Below are positions 561-8,851 of a DNA stretch of 64,000 nt, in pieces. This stretch comes from Spirochaetota bacterium (GTDB lineage Bacteria > Spirochaetota > UBA4802 > UBA5550). The stretch spans positions 62,001 to 126,000 of the forward strand of contig JAGNKX010000004.1 of assembly GCA_017999915.1 (NCBI GenBank). The letters run 5' to 3'. The position numbers were made by a program, and so were the translations under genes. The notes beneath the pieces were generated by a model. That model had not been told where the DNA came from and did not search any database. It saw only the letters and a list, made by a program, of their open reading frames with translations. Each line of letters starts with the position of its first letter. Position 1 is the stretch's first letter.

Positions 561-1514
561 ATGAAATGCGGGATCGGCGCGCGTAACGGCAGGCTCACAG
601 AAGATTTTATCAATGACATTGTCGGCGATCTCTGCAGGCCTGAATCCTACGAAGCCGTATACCATCGCACCTACCATGATTTTCCCATGCCGTCGGTGGA
701 AAGCCTCAGGGAATTCGTCGATCTGATGAAGTCGATATTGTTCCCGGGGTATTTCGTCAATTCCGACGTGAAGCCCGAGACCATGAAGTTCTATATCGGG
801 TCGGCCCTTGACATGGTCTATCGCCACCTGGCGGAACAGGTGAAGCGGGGGTTCTGCTTTTCCTGCGCAGAGGCCGGCGAGACGGACCATGACTGCGAAG
901 ATTGCGAGAGAAGATCGAAAGATGTTTCAAAGAAATTCCTGCTTACCCTTCCTCGTTTGCGGAGATTGCTTACCCTGGATGCCCGGGCTGCCTTCAAGGG
1001 AGATCCGGCGGCCAAAGGCGTCGGTGAGACCATATTCTGCTATCCAAGCCTGTCCGCGCTGGCGAACCACCGCGTCGCCCATGAACTGTATTGCCTCGAA
1101 GTCCCTCTTATACCGAGGATTATTTCCGAGATGGCCCATTCCGAAACGGGTATAGACATCCACCCCGGCGCCAGGATCGGAGAATCATTCTTCATAGACC
1201 ATGGCACCGGGACGGTCATAGGCGAAACTGCGGTGATCGGCGCAAACGTGAGGATCTACCAGGGAGTGACCCTGGGCGCGAAAAGCTTTCCCCTTGACGA
1301 AAATGGAAATCCGATCAAGGGGATTCCCCGCCATCCCATCGTGGAAGACGACGTCATAATCTATTCCGGCGCTACCATACTGGGGCGCGTCACGATCGGG
1401 AAAGGGGCGGAGATCGGGGGCAACGTGTGGCTCACCAGGGATGTCGCCCCGGGGGCGAAGATAATGCAGGGTAAGGCCGAGGAATTCCTCTTCGGGGATG
1501 GACTCGGCATTTAG
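561..1514 (+). CDS. cysE: Serine O-acetyltransferase (long EpsC/CysE type)
   Basis: The 317-residue protein acetylates L-serine with acetyl-CoA, the first step of cysteine synthesis, in the cytoplasm. The C-terminal half has the left-handed beta-helix hexapeptide repeats, with the family stretches HPGARIGESFFIDHGTG and VIGETAVIGANVRIYQGVT; the HG histidine is the expected catalytic residue. I place the start at ATG 561 because GGAGG lies at 551-555; an upstream ATG at 525 adds 12 residues but has no ribosome site. The N-terminal helical half carries two CxxC pairs about ten residues apart (nt 847-910), which could bind zinc or act as a redox switch. The stop overlaps by four bases the stop of the convergent reductase gene. 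Confidence 0.93.
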   Translation: MKCGIGARNGRLTEDFINDIVGDLCRPESYEAVYHRTYHDFPMPSVESLREFVDLMKSILFPGYFVNSDVKPETMKFYIGSALDMVYRHLAEQVKRGFCFSCAEAGETDHDCEDCERRSKDVSKKFLLTLPRLRRLLTLDARAAFKGDPAAKGVGETIFCYPSLSALANHRVAHELYCLEVPLIPRIISEMAHSETGIDIHPGARIGESFFIDHGTGTVIGETAVIGANVRIYQGVTLGAKSFPLDENGNPIKGIPRHPIVEDDVIIYSGATILGRVTIGKGAEIGGNVWLTRDVAPGAKIMQGKAEEFLFGDGLGI

Positions 1515-2866
1515 AAGGGCTTGCGCTTCAGAAGCTTCTGCGCCGCCGCGTTGACCGGGTCCCAGACCGGGGAAAAGGGCGGGGCGTATCCGAGGTCAAG
1601 GTAGGCGACCTCGTCGATCTTCATCCTGGCCGTGACCGCAGTTGCGATCACATTGGTACGGAGTGCGGCGCCGTCGGGACCGGCTATTTCCCCACCGATC
1701 AATTCGCCGGTGTCGGAGTTGATGGTCAATGAGACCAGGATTTCCTTCGTCCCGGGATAATAACCGGCCCGCGATCGCCATTTGACCAGGGCCGATTCGG
1801 CCTTTATACCCTCGCGGGCAGCGTCGGCGCCGTTCAGGCCGGTTTTTCCCACCTCGAGATCAAAGACCTTGACGAGCTGGGACCCCACGGAGCCCCGAAA
1901 CAGCTCTTCCTGGACGCCTGCGGCCTGGAGTCCGGCGACGCGCCCCTGCTTGTTGGCGGTGGTCCCCAGGGGAAAATACACATCGTTGCCGGTTATTATG
2001 CTTTTTACCGTTGAGCAGTCACCGGCCGCCAACACCTCGGGTACATTGGTCCATGATCCCTCATCAACTATGATGGCGCCCCGGTCATTCATGAGCAAAC
2101 CGGAGCCTTTTAAGAATTCCGTATTGGGAGCTATGCCGGTGGATGCGATGATAAAATCAGCTTCATGGATGCCCCTGTCGGTATGAACGGCCAGGCCCGT
2201 AACTGATGCATCGATATGGCTGATCTTTGTCGAAGCGATAATGGTGACATTGTTCTCCTCAAGGGTGCGCCAGATGAGGTCCCTGATCTCCGGGGAAAGA
2301 GGCATGGCAACGGATTCAAATTTTTCAAGAATAGTCACATCAATGGAAAGCCTTCGCAACGTTTCAGCCAATTCCAGACCGATGAATCCTCCGCCGATGA
2401 TTATACATGATTGAGGCCTATGCTCCCTTATGAAATCCTTTATCGATATTCCCTGAGAAAGATTTCTCAAAAAAAAGACCGATGGGCTGTCAATTCCGGG
2501 GATGGGGGGTATAATGGGCCTGGCCCCTGTGGCGATAACGAGCCTGTTGTATCCCAGCGTATATGTCTTTTCGGAAGTACGCGCCGTCACGGTTTTTTCG
2601 GAAAAATCGACATCAATTACTTCAGTGCCTATGCGGATGTCGATTTTTCTTTTTCCCCTGAATTCGTCAATATCGATGGCTATAAGGCTTTCTGAATTTT
2701 TGACTATATCGGCTATAAAATAGGGCATGCCGCAGGCCGCGTAAGAAACATGAAGGCCCAGTTCCAGAACGGCAATTGTCAGTGAAGGATTGATACGCCT
2801 TGCCTGGGACGCAGCGCTCATTCCCGCGGCGTCACCGCCAATGATTAAAATGTCAAATTTTTCCAT
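1511..2866 (-). CDS. CoA-disulfide reductase-like FAD/NAD(P)H oxidoreductase
   Basis: A 451-residue flavoprotein of the pyridine nucleotide-disulfide reductase superfamily. The N-terminal FAD site is IIGGDAAGMSAA. The single active-site cysteine sits in SYAACGMPYF near residue 46, as in CoA-disulfide reductases and NADH oxidases. A second nucleotide site reads IIIGGGFIGLELAE, and FAD contacts lie in VLAAGDC. The C-terminal YAPPFSPVWDP segment is typical of CoA-disulfide reductase. The likely role is reduction of CoA disulfide, persulfide or O2/peroxide with NAD(P)H. A good promoter lies just upstream (2895-2923). It stands at the edge of the oxygen-defence cluster, divergent from the HesB-like selenoprotein gene. 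NADH oxidase or polysulfide reductase activity is an alternative. Confidence 0.88.
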   Translation of the reverse strand: MEKFDILIIGGDAAGMSAASQARRINPSLTIAVLELGLHVSYAACGMPYFIADIVKNSESLIAIDIDEFRGKRKIDIRIGTEVIDVDFSEKTVTARTSEKTYTLGYNRLVIATGARPIIPPIPGIDSPSVFFLRNLSQGISIKDFIREHRPQSCIIIGGGFIGLELAETLRRLSIDVTILEKFESVAMPLSPEIRDLIWRTLEENNVTIIASTKISHIDASVTGLAVHTDRGIHEADFIIASTGIAPNTEFLKGSGLLMNDRGAIIVDEGSWTNVPEVLAAGDCSTVKSIITGNDVYFPLGTTANKQGRVAGLQAAGVQEELFRGSVGSQLVKVFDLEVGKTGLNGADAAREGIKAESALVKWRSRAGYYPGTKEILVSLTINSDTGELIGGEIAGPDGAALRTNVIATAVTARMKIDEVAYLDLGYAPPFSPVWDPVNAAAQKLLKRKPF

Positions 2867-2923: not shown

Positions 2924-2961
2924 GAAAAATATAGAAAATTCTAAAATACTGTATTTCTATG

Positions 2962-2990
2962 TTGACGATAATTTGAAAAATTAGTATTTT
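2962..2990 (+). promoter_or_regulatory. Sigma-70-type promoter of the HesB-like selenoprotein gene
   Basis: TTGACG (2962-2967) and TATTTT (2985-2990) are separated by 17 bases, and the gene begins at 3021 with its ribosome site at 3011. The promoter is divergent from that of the CoA-disulfide reductase gene, with about 40 bases between the two -35 boxes. Confidence 0.5.
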
Positions 2991-3020
2991 AAAAACACCT
3001 TAAATACCATGGAGGTTATT

Positions 3021-3323
3021 TTGAATATTAATATAACAAAAGAAGCCAGGACGCGATTGCATAAGGCCCTTGTAGAATCGGATTTTCACAAACCGGCGTT
3101 GAGGGTGGTTTTTTCAGGTTTTGGTTGAGGCGGTCCCCGGCTGGGACTGGCTCTGGATGAGCTGGAAAATAGCAGCGATCAGATCATTGAAAGCGACGAA
3201 ATCAAGATCCTGGTCGATGAAAGGGTATCGGATTTTCTGGATTCCATACCTTCCCTGACGGTGAATTATATTGAAACAAAGCATGGATCCGGTTACGTTT
3301 TTGAAGGATTGAAAACGTGTTAG
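3021..3323 (+). CDS. HesB/IscA-like protein with in-frame UGA (selenocysteine)
   Basis: Reading TGA at 3126-3128 as selenocysteine gives a 100-residue A-type iron-sulfur carrier-like protein (HesB/IscA family, PF01521 type). The N-terminus reads NINITKEARTRLHKAL, as in the family. The TGA sits in FSGFG-U-GGPRLGLALDE, exactly where IscA proteins have their first metal-binding cysteine. The C-terminus ends in a single cysteine (EGLKTC). Start is TTG 3021 with GGAGG at 3011-3015; an in-frame ATG at 3009 lies inside that ribosome site. A promoter precedes the gene and a strong hairpin terminator follows it. HesB-like selenoproteins are a known bacterial family. The role (Fe-S delivery or redox) is not established. 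An ordinary stop would leave only a 35-residue stub. Confidence 0.85.
3128..3165 (+). promoter_or_regulatory. Candidate bacterial SECIS hairpin(s) after the UGA
   Basis: Two mutually exclusive hairpins lie inside the coding sequence just after the UGA. The first pairs GTCCC (3133-3137) with GGGAC (3143-3147) around loop CGGCT. The second pairs CTGGCTC (3147-3153) with GAGCTGG (3159-3165), with two wobbles, around loop TGGAT that starts 26 bases after the UGA. Bacterial SECIS elements are usually a short stem with guanines near the start of a small apical loop, set roughly 16-37 bases from the UGA, which favours the second. The structure is inferred by eye. Confidence 0.55.
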
Positions 3324-3349: not shown

Positions 3350-3381
3350 AAAAGAGCGGCACCGCATGATGCCGCTCTTTT
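3350..3381. terminator. Bidirectional hairpin terminator
   Basis: An A-flanked perfect stem pairs AAAGAGCGGCA (3351-3361) with TGCCGCTCTTT (3370-3380) around an 8-base loop, with an A tract on one side and a T tract on the other. It lies between the convergent HesB-like gene (plus) and rubrerythrin (minus) and can stop both. Confidence 0.8.
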
Positions 3382-3398: not shown

Positions 3399-3974
3399 TT
3401 AGAAATTGTCATCGAGCACTTCGAAATATGCCTGGGGATGGAGACAGGTCGGGCATTTTTCCGGGGCGCTCTCGCCCTCGTGGATATAACCGCAATTGCG
3501 GCATTTCCATTTGGTCTTTCCCTTTTTCTTGAAGACCGTACCGTCCTGTATGTTCTTCATGAGCGCCAGATAGCGCTCTTCGTGGTGCTTCTCCACTTCG
3601 GCGATCTTTCTCCAGGCAATGGCGATATCCTTGAATCCTTCCTGTTCCGCTACGTCAGCGAAGGACGGATAGAGCAGGGTGTGCTCTTCATTCTCGCCGG
3701 CGGCGGCGGCTTTGAGGTTTTCCACCGTGGTGCCTATGACGCCGGCCGGGTAGGAGGCGTTGATTTCCACCACTCCGCCTTCGAGAAACTTGAAAAAGCG
3801 CTTGGCATGCTCTTTCTCGTTCTCGGCGGTTTCAAGGAATATCGCCGCGATCTGCTCATATCCCTCTTTTTTAGCCTGTGAGGCGAAAAAGGTATACCTG
3901 TTCCGGGCCTGTGATTCGCCCGCAAAAGACGCTAAAAGGTTCTTTTCTGTCTTAGTTCCTTTTACACTTTTCAT
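3399..3974 (-). CDS. rbr: Rubrerythrin
   Basis: A 191-residue cytoplasmic peroxidase that reduces H2O2 with electrons from rubredoxin. The N-terminal four-helix domain carries the di-iron ligands in [19 protein letters not shown] and [10 protein letters not shown]. The C-terminal rubredoxin-like domain supplies the FeS4 site with CRNCGY and CPTC. Length and domain order are those of classical rubrerythrin. AGGAG stands six bases before the start. It is the last gene of a minus-strand series that also holds ferritin, superoxide reductase, cytochrome bd and rubredoxin, so a joint role in removing oxygen species is likely. Confidence 0.95.
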
Positions 3975-4110
3975 TCTAATCTCCTCGTTGAGTTGATAGG
4001 GGTATGGTTCCCCCGTAAATTATGTTGCTACACCTGGCAGGCGCCATGTTTCAGTCATGTGCTGATAGGACTTACTCCGGACTTAGAGCGCGTATTCAGA
4101 CGCGCCAAAG

Positions 4111-4641
4111 CTATGCGCCGGCACCGGCAATGCCCGTATACAGTGCCATGTTCAATATCCTCTGTGCGAGCTCGCGGTCTTTCATAAGGAGACCATTGCC
4201 GTCATTGCCTATAAGCTTGAGCTCGTCCAGTATCTCAAGGGCCGATGCCTCTTCCTCGACCTGCTCGGCCACAAACCACTGGAGCATGTTGTTCGTCGCG
4301 TGATCCTTTTCCGCGATCGAGAGGTTGACGAGATCGTTTATAAGGCCGGTGACCTTCTGTTCATGCCTGTAGACTTCTTCAAAGACGTGCTCCGGCGATT
4401 TCCAGTCCGTGGGCGGGCCTTCTATGGGCTTCAGAAGCACCCTTCCGCCCCTGTCAAAGAGGTAGCGGTAGAATTTCCTTGAATGAGAGAATTCCTCGGC
4501 CGCCTGGATCTCCATCCAGTGGGCGAAGCCTTTCAATCCCTTGTTCTGGAAATAGGCGCACATTGAAAGATACAGGTAAGCCGAATACTGCTCGGCGTTT
4601 ATCTGGTTGTTGATGGCATCTTCTACTTTTTTGACTATCAT
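4111..4641 (-). CDS. Non-haem ferritin
   Basis: A 176-residue ferritin that stores iron and oxidises Fe(II) at a di-iron ferroxidase centre. The family pattern is clear: NAEQYSAYLYLSM at the N-terminus with the first glutamate, AAEEFSHSRKF with the E-x-x-H pair, and AEQVEEEASALEIL with the later glutamates. It lacks a haem-binding signature that I can recognise, so I call it bacterial non-haem ferritin. It sits between superoxide reductase and rubrerythrin in the same orientation, with 136 bases before rubrerythrin. Sequestering iron fits with limiting Fenton chemistry. Confidence 0.93.
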   Translation of the reverse strand: MIVKKVEDAINNQINAEQYSAYLYLSMCAYFQNKGLKGFAHWMEIQAAEEFSHSRKFYRYLFDRGGRVLLKPIEGPPTDWKSPEHVFEEVYRHEQKVTGLINDLVNLSIAEKDHATNNMLQWFVAEQVEEEASALEILDELKLIGNDGNGLLMKDRELAQRILNMALYTGIAGAGA

Positions 4642-4657
4642 AGAGCGTTTCCTGGCG

Positions 4658-5035
4658 TCATTTTTTCCAGAGACCGTGAAGGTTGCAGTACTCGCGCACC
4701 GTCGATTTTTCGTCAGCGCAGCAGAATTCAGCTTCAGGCGCCTGGCCCGGCTTGAGGAACTTGCGGTCCGATGTTCCGTCTGCGGATATCACCTGTATCC
4801 ACTCGATATAATGCTTTTCCTCCATCGGATGGGCGACTTCTCCCACCTTGGCCTTGATCCCATGATCGGATTTGCTGACGGCGGGAATATGCTTCTCCTT
4901 TGCCGCGTCGGTGGTATTCTCGGTAAGAAGCGTCATGTCCTGACCGCAGCAGACAAGGGTTCCGACGCTTTCATGGATGACCTCGACGATATTGCCGCAA
5001 ACCTGACATTTGTAAATTTCAAATCTCTTTGTCAT
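4658..5035 (-). CDS. dfx: Desulfoferrodoxin (superoxide reductase)
   Basis: A 125-residue two-iron superoxide reductase that turns superoxide into H2O2 with electrons from rubredoxin. Centre I is the N-terminal FeS4 site with CQVCG and VCCGQ. Centre II is the active site, with histidines in [22 protein letters not shown], and the late CNLHGLW cysteine-histidine pair. All expected ligands are visible. GGAGG lies six bases before the start. The gene lies 16 bases upstream of ferritin and downstream of cydB. The partner rubredoxin is encoded at the head of the same series. Confidence 0.96.
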
Positions 5036-5089
5036 TATGAACCTCCATAAAATTTGTTACCGGCAGCATGGCCGGCGATACTGTGATTG

Positions 5090-6088
5090 TTATTGTGAGA
5101 CTTTTCCTTTAAAAACACGGTATGAATATATGGTATACCCCAGGACTATGGGCATGCCGATCAGGGCGATGATGAGCATGACCGAAAGCGTCAGTTGGCT
5201 CGACGACGTGTTGTATATCTGAAGATGAAGGCCGGCGTCATCGGTCGCCCTTACGAGATTGGGGAATTGAATTGACCCGGCAATACCCCATAGCCCTATA
5301 AAAGAGATCGACGACAGGATGAATGCGGCAAAGCCGCTGTTTTTCCCGAGCCGTGACCTCGCCGCCGCGATGGCGATGAAAACAATGGCAGTACAGATCC
5401 AGGCGGGAATGTTGGCCATCCGCTCCGGCATGACGATAAAGGCGACGATAATGGAAAGGGCAAGGAGCGCCGCGTAGGCGATAGCTATTTTCTTGCCGGC
5501 GCTCACGATCCGGTCATGGAGCTCACCCTCGGTTTTAAGGGCCCCATAGGCGCATCCCTGGAGGAGTATCGCAGACAGGCCGAGAAGTCCGATGGCCAAT
5601 GGATAGGGACGCAGCAGGGTGAAGAAGGTGCCGGTAAATTCCATCTTGTCGTTCAATGGAATGCCAATGAGAACATTGCCGAGGGCCACGCCGAAAAGCA
5701 GGGATGGCAGCGCGCTCCCCACGGTAAAGGCCCATTTCCAGAGGGTCCGGCGATTTTCATCCAGCGACCAGAATTCAAGGGCCACGGCCCTGAATATCAG
5801 GGCGAACAGCACGAGCATCAGGGCGAGATAAAAGCCGCTGAATACCGTGGCATAGACATGGGGGAACGCGGCGAACAGGGCGCCGCCCCCCGTGAGGAGC
5901 CATACCTCATTGCCGTCCCATACAGGGCCAATGGCGGTGAAAAGGGCCGTTATATCTTTTTTATCCCTGGCAAAATAGGGGAGCAGGGTGCCAATGCCGA
6001 GATCAAATCCGTCTAGGACAGAATAGCCGATGAACAGAACGCCGATCAGGATGAACCATATGATCTGAAGGATTTGAATGGTTTCCAT
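5090..6088 (-). CDS. cydB: Cytochrome bd quinol oxidase, subunit II
   Basis: A 332-residue integral membrane subunit that pairs with CydA in the oxygen-reducing bd oxidase. It has the family start (IWFILIGVLFIGYSVLDGFD) with the conserved GFDLG segment and IGPVWDGNEVWL after it, then about eight hydrophobic helices. It follows cydA with a two-base gap and the same orientation. No short CydX-like gene is visible after it. In an anaerobe-type gene set this oxidase probably scavenges oxygen at low tension. Confidence 0.96.
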   Translation of the reverse strand: METIQILQIIWFILIGVLFIGYSVLDGFDLGIGTLLPYFARDKKDITALFTAIGPVWDGNEVWLLTGGGALFAAFPHVYATVFSGFYLALMLVLFALIFRAVALEFWSLDENRRTLWKWAFTVGSALPSLLFGVALGNVLIGIPLNDKMEFTGTFFTLLRPYPLAIGLLGLSAILLQGCAYGALKTEGELHDRIVSAGKKIAIAYAALLALSIIVAFIVMPERMANIPAWICTAIVFIAIAAARSRLGKNSGFAAFILSSISFIGLWGIAGSIQFPNLVRATDDAGLHLQIYNTSSSQLTLSVMLIIALIGMPIVLGYTIYSYRVFKGKVSQ

Positions 6089-6090
6089 GA

Positions 6091-7422
6091 TTATTCCCCC
6101 ACGTATCCGAGAGTTGTTTTATCGGGTCCCTTGCGAATAATGCCGAAGAGGAGCTTCAGAAATACAATGAATAAAAGGATGTAGATGGCGCTGAAAGCAA
6201 TGATAGTCAGCAATATCTGCCATGCCGGCACCACGACCGATGCGGCATCGACGGTTTTCAGCACTTTGTACACTGCCCAGGGCTGCCGCCCGATCTCGGC
6301 GGCCATCCATCCCAGTTCGTTGGCAATGAAAGGAAGGGGCACCGATAGGACAAGAACCCAGAGAAACCACCGCGCATCCTTTAGTTTGCCGGTTATCATG
6401 AGGATGGCGGAGATCGCGGCAACGAGGGCGAAGAATGAGCCAAGCCCTATCATGCCGTGATAGGTGAGATATGTTAACACAATAGGCGGCTGTTCATCTT
6501 CGGGAATCTCGTCAAGGCCCTGTACCCTGGAGTTGGGATCGAAATTGATGCCGATGCTCAGGAGCTTGGGAACGGCGATCTCGAAATGGGTCTTCTTCTG
6601 CGACGGATCGGGCAGTCCTATGATGGACATGGGCGCGCCTTCCTGGCTTTGCCAGAGCGCTTCAAAGGCGGCCATCTTCGCAGGCTGCGTATTGGCGACC
6701 TGAACGGCATGTCCGTGACCAGAGCCGAACTGGAGAAGCGCAACGGCTATGAATAACCAGAGGGCGATCTTTATCAGGTACTGGGCAGATTCCCGGTCCC
6801 GTTGTTTCAGGAGGTACCACGCGCCTATGCCGGCGGTGAAGAGCGATCCGGTGATCCAGCCGCCCATCACGGTATGAAGATAGCGGATAAGCGTTGAATC
6901 GTTGAAGGCTGCGGCGAAAAAGTCCTTGAGCACCGCCCGGCCCCCTTCAATGGCGAATCCGGCCGGAGTCTGCATCCATGAATTGGCAATGATTATCCAC
7001 AGGCCTGAAAGATGGGAAGCGAAGAAAACCAGGAACGCCGATAACAGATATACGCCTTTGGAGAGGCGGTTTCTCCCGAAGATGAGCATCCCCAGGAACA
7101 CCGATTCCATGAAAAAGGCAAATACGCCTTCGGCGGCGAGGGGCGCGCCGAAAATGTCGCCCACCATCCGGGAATAATTGGACCAGTTCGTGCCAAAGGA
7201 AAATTCCAGGACGATACCGGTGGCGACTCCCATGACAAAAACAAGGCCCAGAATCTTGATCATGAAATTTGATATTTTAAGATTATGCTCGCTTCCGGAT
7301 CTGTAATACAGAAGCTCAAGTATTACGATCAGCAGCGTGAGCCCCAGTGTCAGGGGTGGAAAAATGAAATGGAATCCCGCAGTTAAACCGAATTGAATTC
7401 TTGAGAGAAGAACCGCATCCAT
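6091..7422 (-). CDS. cydA: Cytochrome bd quinol oxidase, subunit I
   Basis: A 443-residue membrane subunit that binds the haems and oxidises quinol. The haem-ligand histidine is at residue 18 in GLTAGFHFIFPPLTLG, another in YLHTVMGGWITG, and the haem b558 and quinol region includes ELGWMAAEIGRQPWAVY. The length suits the short Q-loop class. The gene comes after rubredoxin and before cydB. It gives the cell a high-affinity oxygen sink beside the peroxide and superoxide reductases. Confidence 0.97.
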   Translation of the reverse strand: MDAVLLSRIQFGLTAGFHFIFPPLTLGLTLLIVILELLYYRSGSEHNLKISNFMIKILGLVFVMGVATGIVLEFSFGTNWSNYSRMVGDIFGAPLAAEGVFAFFMESVFLGMLIFGRNRLSKGVYLLSAFLVFFASHLSGLWIIIANSWMQTPAGFAIEGGRAVLKDFFAAAFNDSTLIRYLHTVMGGWITGSLFTAGIGAWYLLKQRDRESAQYLIKIALWLFIAVALLQFGSGHGHAVQVANTQPAKMAAFEALWQSQEGAPMSIIGLPDPSQKKTHFEIAVPKLLSIGINFDPNSRVQGLDEIPEDEQPPIVLTYLTYHGMIGLGSFFALVAAISAILMITGKLKDARWFLWVLVLSVPLPFIANELGWMAAEIGRQPWAVYKVLKTVDAASVVVPAWQILLTIIAFSAIYILLFIVFLKLLFGIIRKGPDKTTLGYVGE

Positions 7423-7465
7423 TATTCTGCCTCCAAATGATCAGACATGTTTCAGCAATGTTATG

Positions 7466-7630
7466 CTAATCTTCGTATGGCTCGAACTGGTCTTTTCCTA
7501 CGCCGCATTGCGGGCAGACCCAATCATTGGGCAGCTTTTCAAAGGGCGTGCCGGGTGCGATGTCGGAATCAGGATCTCCCGCTTCAGGATCGTAGACATA
7601 CCCGCATACTGAACATACATATTTTTTCAT
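7466..7630 (-). CDS. Rubredoxin
   Basis: A 54-residue electron carrier with one FeS4 site held by [10 protein letters not shown] and CPQCGVGK, the standard CxxCGxxYD / CPxCGxxK pattern. It would supply electrons to rubrerythrin and superoxide reductase encoded downstream. I use the ATG at 7630 because GGAGG lies eight bases upstream; a longer reading from 7660 has no ribosome site. It is the first gene of the rubredoxin-cydA-cydB-dfx-ferritin-rbr series. Confidence 0.96.
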
Positions 7631-8001
7631 AATTAAGGCCTCCCTGATGATTTTCAGCAAAAAATTAGTTATTGCTCGAATGCAACTCGTTATGTTGTTT
7701 ATATTCTTTAAATATATATTATATAATAAAGGGCTTTTTGGAAACCATTTTTTATATCAGACCAGTTGCAAAACCGGTATTTCACCTCTCCCGGCAAGGG
7801 GTGGCAAAATTAGAAATCTATAAAAGCAACAAGCCTGTTGATAAACGCCGGATATATTCGTACTATCTAACATTTGTAATAAATACAAATATCATTTCCC
7901 CCTATTTTATTTCAAGAAAAAAATAATCGGAAAATGGAAATATTTTTAAAACGTGGTAATCCGTTATGCGAAATGAACAATAGAAAATGCGATGCAACCG
8001 G
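7631..8001. other. Non-coding gap before rubredoxin, candidate operator
   Basis: No gene is seen in this AT-rich stretch. At 7717-7728 there is a perfect 12-base palindrome TATTATATAATA that includes a minus-strand TATAAT. It resembles the AT-rich palindromes bound by PerR-type repressors and would overlap the -10 region of the rubredoxin operon. The match is suggestive only. Confidence 0.35.
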
Positions 8002-8421
8002 TTATTTTGAGCATCGTTTACAGATGCCCTTGAAATAGACCTGCCGTTCCGTAATATAATGACCCTGAATTTTTCTGCTGACGCTCAATCTCTTGTCGAA
8101 GCTCATCTGGTCCATCTCGATGTCATATAACATTCCACATTGGATGCATTTGAAATGACCATGAAATGTAAGGTCCGCGTCATAGCGAACCTCATTGTCT
8201 TCAATGGTAATGGAGGATACAAGGCCTTTTTCGGAAAATGTTTTCAATGTATTGTAAATGGTGGTTTTTGACAGGGTCGGTATCTGTTTGATCACTTCGT
8301 CATAGATCATGTCTACCGTTGGATGGGTCCTGTTATTAGATAGGTATTCGTAGATTTTCAAACGATGAAAGGAGGGACTGATGTCGTTTTCCAGTAAAAT
8401 GCTTTTAATGTCGTTAGCCAA
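8002..8421 (-). CDS. Fur-family regulator, PerR-like
   Basis: A 139-residue metal-dependent repressor. The N-terminal winged helix includes SPSFHRLKIYEYL, TVDMIYDEV and TLSKTTIYNTL. The C-terminal dimer domain has the HGHFKC motif and two cysteine pairs (CIQC and CKRC) for structural zinc. I choose TTG 8421, preceded by a G-rich ribosome site, because a longer reading would begin at a TTG inside a probable TTGACA -35 box. It lies directly upstream of the oxygen-defence series in the same orientation, so a peroxide-sensing PerR role is likely; Fur or Zur cannot be ruled out by eye. Confidence 0.88.
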   Translation of the reverse strand: MANDIKSILLENDISPSFHRLKIYEYLSNNRTHPTVDMIYDEVIKQIPTLSKTTIYNTLKTFSEKGLVSSITIEDNEVRYDADLTFHGHFKCIQCGMLYDIEMDQMSFDKRLSVSRKIQGHYITERQVYFKGICKRCSK

Positions 8422-8851
8422 TGTTGCCCCCCACCGCGACAAGTCAAATCTGATAGGATATGAGCATATGATCTTCACTGTCAATTGAATCTATCAGATA
8501 CTGATCAGAATTCATGCTGTCAATGGCGCCCACCCGATATGCATTGTCACGTATTGTAGCCGCTTTCATTCCGGAACCGCCGGGTAATATTTTTGTGATT
8601 GTTATGCGATATATCAATAATGCGCGTCACTATTCATAACTTGTCATGGTATTATCTTTCTGCGTCTATTTGTCAACAAAAAGATAAACGGGTAAATAAT
8701 GGTAGTCCATAATTGTTTCAAAAATGTAACGATTACAAGATATATAAAATTTTGCCGCATTACAATGATTAATGAGGTTTTCGGCGAAAAAATGATTGCT
8801 AACAGGATGATGGTGTTTAAAATCATAATAAATTGCATAAAATAAAGAGGA
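8422..8851. other. Divergent regulatory gap between PerR-like gene and cytochrome gene
   Basis: No gene is seen. For the minus strand, TTGACA boxes are at 8517-8522 (17 bases before TATCTG) and 8479-8484 (18 bases before TATCCT), either able to drive the regulator. For the plus strand, TTGTCA (8670-8675) with TAAATA (8693-8698) at 17 bases could drive the cytochrome gene. The first minus-strand box is followed by ATCAG/CTGAT inverted repeats near 8492-8506 that might be an autoregulatory site. Confidence 0.35.

Follow-up and report, generated by a model that had tools for sequence, protein, structure and literature searches.

Does an in-frame TGA inside a small reading frame of a Spirochaetota bacterium end a gene or encode selenocysteine (Sec), and if the latter, what might the protein do? 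The frame lies in a 64,000-nt stretch of contig JAGNKX010000004.1 (assembly GCA_017999915.1), hereafter the window. An initial annotation, made from the letters alone, read it as an A-type Fe-S carrier gene split at a metal-binding cysteine site, with a ribosome-binding site, conserved sequence flanking the TGA, a final cysteine, and a terminator. Our analysis bears out each of these elements (Table 1): the TGA aligns with Cys35 of IscA, GGAGG precedes the start codon, TGT directly precedes the TAG, family models and 29 relatives match on both sides of the TGA, and a perfect 12-bp inverted repeat sits between the convergent genes. The start codon is ATG, GTG or TTG at the same position in most relatives that keep the TGA. 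Neither half of the frame appears in a list of ORFs of at least 60 amino acids, so a gene caller that stops at TGA is likely to miss the gene, as the annotation had also supposed. Inspecting the window by eye, we saw no convincing second single-TGA gene; the remaining candidates resemble spurious frames, or translation continued beyond a normal gene end.

Table 1. Features at and around the hesB-Sec locus (window coordinates).
Feature	Position	Strand	Remarks
CoA-disulfide-reductase-like flavoprotein, divergent neighbour	1511..2866	-	416.9 bits, under NF007123 cut-off of 458
Candidate sigma-70-type promoter, TTGACG-17-TATTTT	2962..2990	+	conserved in relatives
Ribosome-binding site GGAGG	3011..3015	+	five bases 5' of TTG start
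Sec-containing HesB/IscA-like gene	3021..3323	+	TTG start, 100 residues, TAG stop
TGA predicted to be read as Sec, residue 36	3126..3128	+	aligned with IscA Cys35; motif G-U-G-G-P
Predicted SECIS hairpin CUGGCUC-UGGAU-GAGCUGG	3147..3165	+	apical loop 25 nt after UGA; covariation
C-terminal cysteine codon TGT, last sense codon	3318..3320	+	in all complete Sec homologues
TAG stop of hesB-Sec	3321..3323	+	
12-bp inverted repeat, likely bidirectional terminator	3350..3381	.	perfect arms, 3350-3361/3370-3381
Oxygen-defence island: rubrerythrin, ferritin, desulfoferrodoxin, CydB, CydA, rubredoxin, PerR-like	3399..8484	-	family-conserved

The read-through protein scored best against NF038090 IscA_HesB_Se (E = 1.4e-13) and also matched TIGR00049 (E = 4e-12), TIGR01911 HesB_rel_seleno (E = 2e-10), and Pfam PF01521 (E = 9e-5), with matches that span both sides of the TGA and an IscA/HesB domain over the full length. 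Its scores fall under the curated cut-offs of NF038090 (51 vs 85 bits) and TIGR01911 (41.1 vs 66.35 bits), which are naming thresholds and not biological features; each of the two models matches 29/29 family members scanned at E<=1e-5. The predicted structure (pLDDT 89) gave Foldseek matches to PDB entries 1r94, 1s98, 1x0g, and 2d2a, and PDB profile matches align the protein to IscA with Sec at Cys35. A UxGP motif is listed for HesB-like selenoproteins (PMC13188914), and the window gene and its relatives carry GUGGP with TGA as the U codon. HesB-like selenoproteins were already established, as the annotation had stated (PMC1794560, PMC5029168, PMC11097638), so the window gene is a new, divergent, and probably unannotated member of a known family. 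It shows how annotation can miss such genes, with ORF calling truncating at the TGA and curated models staying below their cut-offs.

The comparison with HesB-like selenoproteins and Cys homologues that the annotation had called for found TGA at this site in nearly every case, Cys in a few, and an ordinary stop in none. The gene, with one in-frame TGA, is present in 30 of 59 genomes from the same phylum, the window's own included; in the 29 relatives the TGA occupies the same codon, flanked by homologous sequence on either side, far beyond chance. In total, 67 distinct homologues carry the TGA, and they represent about eight phyla. A second scan, which used the alignment downstream of Sec as the query and yielded 60 named loci, found TGA in 56 and Cys in 4 (Desulfomicrobium, Desulfovibrionales). 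The titles of these loci cover Spirochaetes, Desulfuromonadales/Geobacteraceae, Firmicutes/Clostridia, SAR324, Dehalococcoidia, Acidobacteria, Gemmatimonadetes, Delongbacteria, and others. The nearest named relatives of the source organism are metagenome assemblies, the closest an uncultured Spirochaetes assembly (L051), and the TGA form is also found in the named strain Trichlorobacter thiogenes ATCC BAA-34. Invariant positions of the alignment used are G35, the Sec/Cys position, GGP, L41, G42, LDE, and the C-terminal Cys. No complete Sec protein lacks a Cys near its C-terminus (the only two sequences without one lie at contig ends), and some members retain extra C-terminal cysteines. Because the gene tree rests on few columns and resolves poorly, it served here solely to show how the Cys forms nest.

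A SECIS element had been expected at positions 3120-3190, and covariation places one within that span (Table 1). In the bacterial SECIS model, a stem of 4-16 bp with a folding energy of -7.5 kcal/mol or better carries a loop of 3-9 nt with G in one of its first two places, 16-37 nt from the UGA (PMC13188914). The hairpin in the window agrees with this model, having a 7-bp stem (-8.2 kcal/mol), a 5-nt loop (UGGAU) with G at position 2, and a spacing of 25 nt. Across 29 sequences, 95.6% of cells are paired, and double-change cells number 9 vs 2.4 in shuffles. The covariation score is 0.368 vs 0.262 +/- 0.020 in shuffled alignments (0 of 500 shuffles reach 0.368), and is at most 0.138 when the hairpin is slid; compensatory examples include GCT..GAG to GTT..GAA and GCT..GAGC to ACT..GAGT. 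Synonymous sites here are frozen in the Sec genes (CTG in 66/67, NCT in 67/67) and not in the Cys homologues. The loop region reads CTGGA(T/C)G in all but one of the 67 distinct Sec genes, the exception being L075, where by eye the stem seems shifted; in the five Cys genes several stem positions no longer pair. A different hairpin adjacent to the UGA is the minimum-energy structure of the window sequence alone, favoured over the one chosen here. We rejected it as the SECIS: it shows no covariation among the 29 sequences, two of its pairs fail in 12/29 and 15/29, and its loop lies only 9 nt from the UGA. The eukaryotic SECIS model RF00031 matched nothing, controls included, and is uninformative on bacterial elements.

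The annotation had further implied that the organism makes selenocysteine, and all four machinery genes are present. The tRNA-Sec gene (selC; 72.5 bits, anticodon TCA) lies on contig C1 directly beside selA (487 bits), followed by selB (304.9 bits); selD (371.8 bits) is on contig C3 and contains a TGA of its own. This selD (L047, G000 C3:130695-131621) is itself a selenoprotein gene with the motif SGUAAK, and a SECIS-like hairpin (AGGUCC-GGA-GGACCU) has its loop about 17 nt downstream of the TGA. Within the phylum, selB scores over its cut-off in 30/30 genomes with the TGA form of hesB vs 10/29 others (Fisher p = 1.4e-8, kinship not corrected for). One close relative, genome G029, carries TGT where the others have TGA (L032, reverse strand, codon ~1605). 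G029 has no selB over the cut-off and no tRNA-Sec of ~72 bits, whereas four congeners have both, and its hesB copy retains neither the SECIS loop (TGG to TAG) nor the normal C-terminus. This single assembly reads as loss of the Sec trait, then a Sec-to-Cys change, then decay.

Comparative evidence thus establishes the gene, its Sec codon, the SECIS, and the Sec machinery, and on these sequence grounds we are close to certain that 3021-3323 is a working selenoprotein gene. The other readings of the TGA fare poorly. The sequence comes from an assembled genome, and a single TGA in an otherwise open frame is what a pseudogene, or an ordinary Cys gene with a sequencing error, would look like. This account has a vanishingly small probability and is already ruled out by conservation of the TGA, since 29 relative assemblies share the codon, as do members of other phyla such as T. 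thiogenes ATCC BAA-34, with constraint on both the protein and the RNA hairpin. It is very improbable, too, that the TGA acts as an ordinary stop or is decoded as another residue, as Trp or through a suppressor tRNA, with no selenium involved. The UGA-adjacent hairpin could pause ribosomes, which would suit such a reading, but the complete Sec machinery co-occurs with the TGA allele, the codon is TGT where the machinery has been lost, the alternative residue in homologues is Cys and not Trp, and other genes in the window terminate normally at TGA. In the selenoprotein reading, SelB with Sec-tRNA-Sec would bind the hairpin at 3147-3165 (loop 25 nt 3' of the UGA), and Sec would be inserted at residue 36 to give a 100-residue A-type (IscA-fold) protein.

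The surroundings of the gene offer hints to its regulation and role. In the window's bacterial family (loci L051-L055, L060, and L065, with single members missing in some), the order is cysE, CoA-disulfide-reductase-like gene, hesB-Sec, rubrerythrin, ferritin, desulfoferrodoxin, cydB, cydA, rubredoxin, PerR-like gene. Other lineages show other neighbours. By eye, we named a Lon-like protease in other spirochaetes and methionyl-tRNA-synthetase-like genes in Geobacter; in SAR324 and a related bacterium (L082, L086, L096), a thioredoxin reductase gene lies a few hundred bases 3' of hesB-Sec in the same orientation. Outside the window's bacterial family we set clustering aside as lineage-specific, with unrelated partners; the oxygen-defence link is therefore real in one bacterial family and not a property of the whole protein family. 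Of the redox role that the annotation had drawn from the neighbours, the synteny stands for that one family, and the role itself is what we infer from it. The proposed promoter likewise held in part: in the window sequence alone it is at chance level (2 found vs 2.0 expected), but the TTGAC hexamer and a TTAGTATNTT-like block are kept in most of seven aligned relatives. Upstream of hesB, window positions 2930-2995 and L051-L055 share a TAGAAAATTCTAAAATACTG-like block plus TTAGTATWTTCTAA, which overlaps the -10 region. These conserved blocks resemble an operator dyad that the divergent gene would share; in the window, the dyad found in relatives does not clearly exceed chance, and a PerR-box search gave weak matches only.

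Turning to iron-sulphur metabolism, a PF01521 profile search of this genome found no other A-type protein, and the Sec protein, used as a query, retrieved nothing but itself. The hesB-Sec product may thus be the only A-type carrier here, with the qualification that the PF01521 genome search also misses the Sec protein, so an equally divergent second copy could in principle escape it. The same genome (G000) has NifU/IscU-type scaffolds, and SufBD was not found by a search that was positive in 14/14 controls; this suggests Fe-S assembly of the ISC/NIF type. Further A-type copies, of the Cys type, occur in relatives such as G003. In G003, a close relative, two tandem A-type carrier genes without TGA lie at C62:1063-1648, besides the Sec form.

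What might the protein do? The pair Sec36 and Cys100 would replace the Cys35/Cys99/Cys101 set of classical IscA, and could either bind iron or an Fe-S cluster at the interface of subunits or form a reducible selenenyl-sulfide pair; the role would be to defend iron-sulphur enzymes against oxygen in an anaerobe. We favour Fe or Fe-S handling with a redox-active Sec/Cys pair, a proposal that could fall either way. The main competitor is purely thiol/selenol redox chemistry, in which a flavoprotein disulfide reductase would reduce the Sec36-Cys100 pair and Fe-S clusters would play no part. Most members have one C-terminal Cys where IscA has two, and a CoA-disulfide-reductase-like gene is the neighbour here, as thioredoxin reductase is downstream on the same strand in SAR324 relatives. 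Against this stand the IscA fold and family membership, the lineage-specific nature of the neighbours with the SAR324 genes a few hundred bases apart, and the extra C-terminal cysteines kept in some members; we consider a pure redox role a credible option that is on the whole doubtful. A further reading, that the sole A-type carrier found here holds its cluster through a selenolate ligand, Sec36, within a PerR-linked oxygen-defence island, strikes us as unlikely. If true, it would make the protein a natural selenium-ligated Fe-S carrier. The HesB-like family was recognised about two decades ago and still lacks an assigned function. The present set makes it more testable: the SECIS is clean and covaries across phyla, one relative shows a natural switch from Sec to Cys that is coupled to loss of the Sec machinery, one genome has hesB-Sec as its only A-type protein found, and the oxygen-defence neighbourhood is conserved.

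Classical A-type carriers such as IscA and ErpA bind an Fe-S cluster and hand it on, using three cysteines, C35 and a C-terminal CxC. The window protein resembles the IscA/SufA/ErpA carriers of known structure (1r94, 1s98, 1x0g, 2d2a) in fold and near-full-length alignment, with Sec36 at Cys35. It differs in having one Sec and one C-terminal Cys in place of the three-cysteine set: Sec replaces Cys35, and the CxC is down to one Cys in most members. For Methanococcus maripaludis, one report cites work in which mutagenesis and 75Se labelling identified the HesB-like protein MMJJ_08070 as a selenoprotein, and its disruption was tolerated (PMC11097638). MMJJ_08070 shares the family name with the window protein and is likened to it by description only; unlike the window gene, it is archaeal and has a different SECIS type. 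In 2006 there were 25 bacterial selenoprotein families, the HesB-like one included (PMC1794560), and by a 2016 count it occurred in 86 organisms (PMC5029168). The bacterial HesB-like members in the 2006 list came from Deltaproteobacteria, Clostridia, and Symbiobacterium, and the sole selenoprotein-rich spirochaete in that list had none (PMC1794560). Our literature search, which covered main texts, found no paper reporting a HesB-like selenoprotein from Spirochaetota. The window gene shares with the HesB-like selenoproteins Sec in a UxGP motif, a short IscA-type protein, a bacterial SECIS just downstream, and occurrence mostly in anaerobes; it differs in its divergence, below both curated cut-offs, and in its family-specific oxygen-defence neighbourhood.
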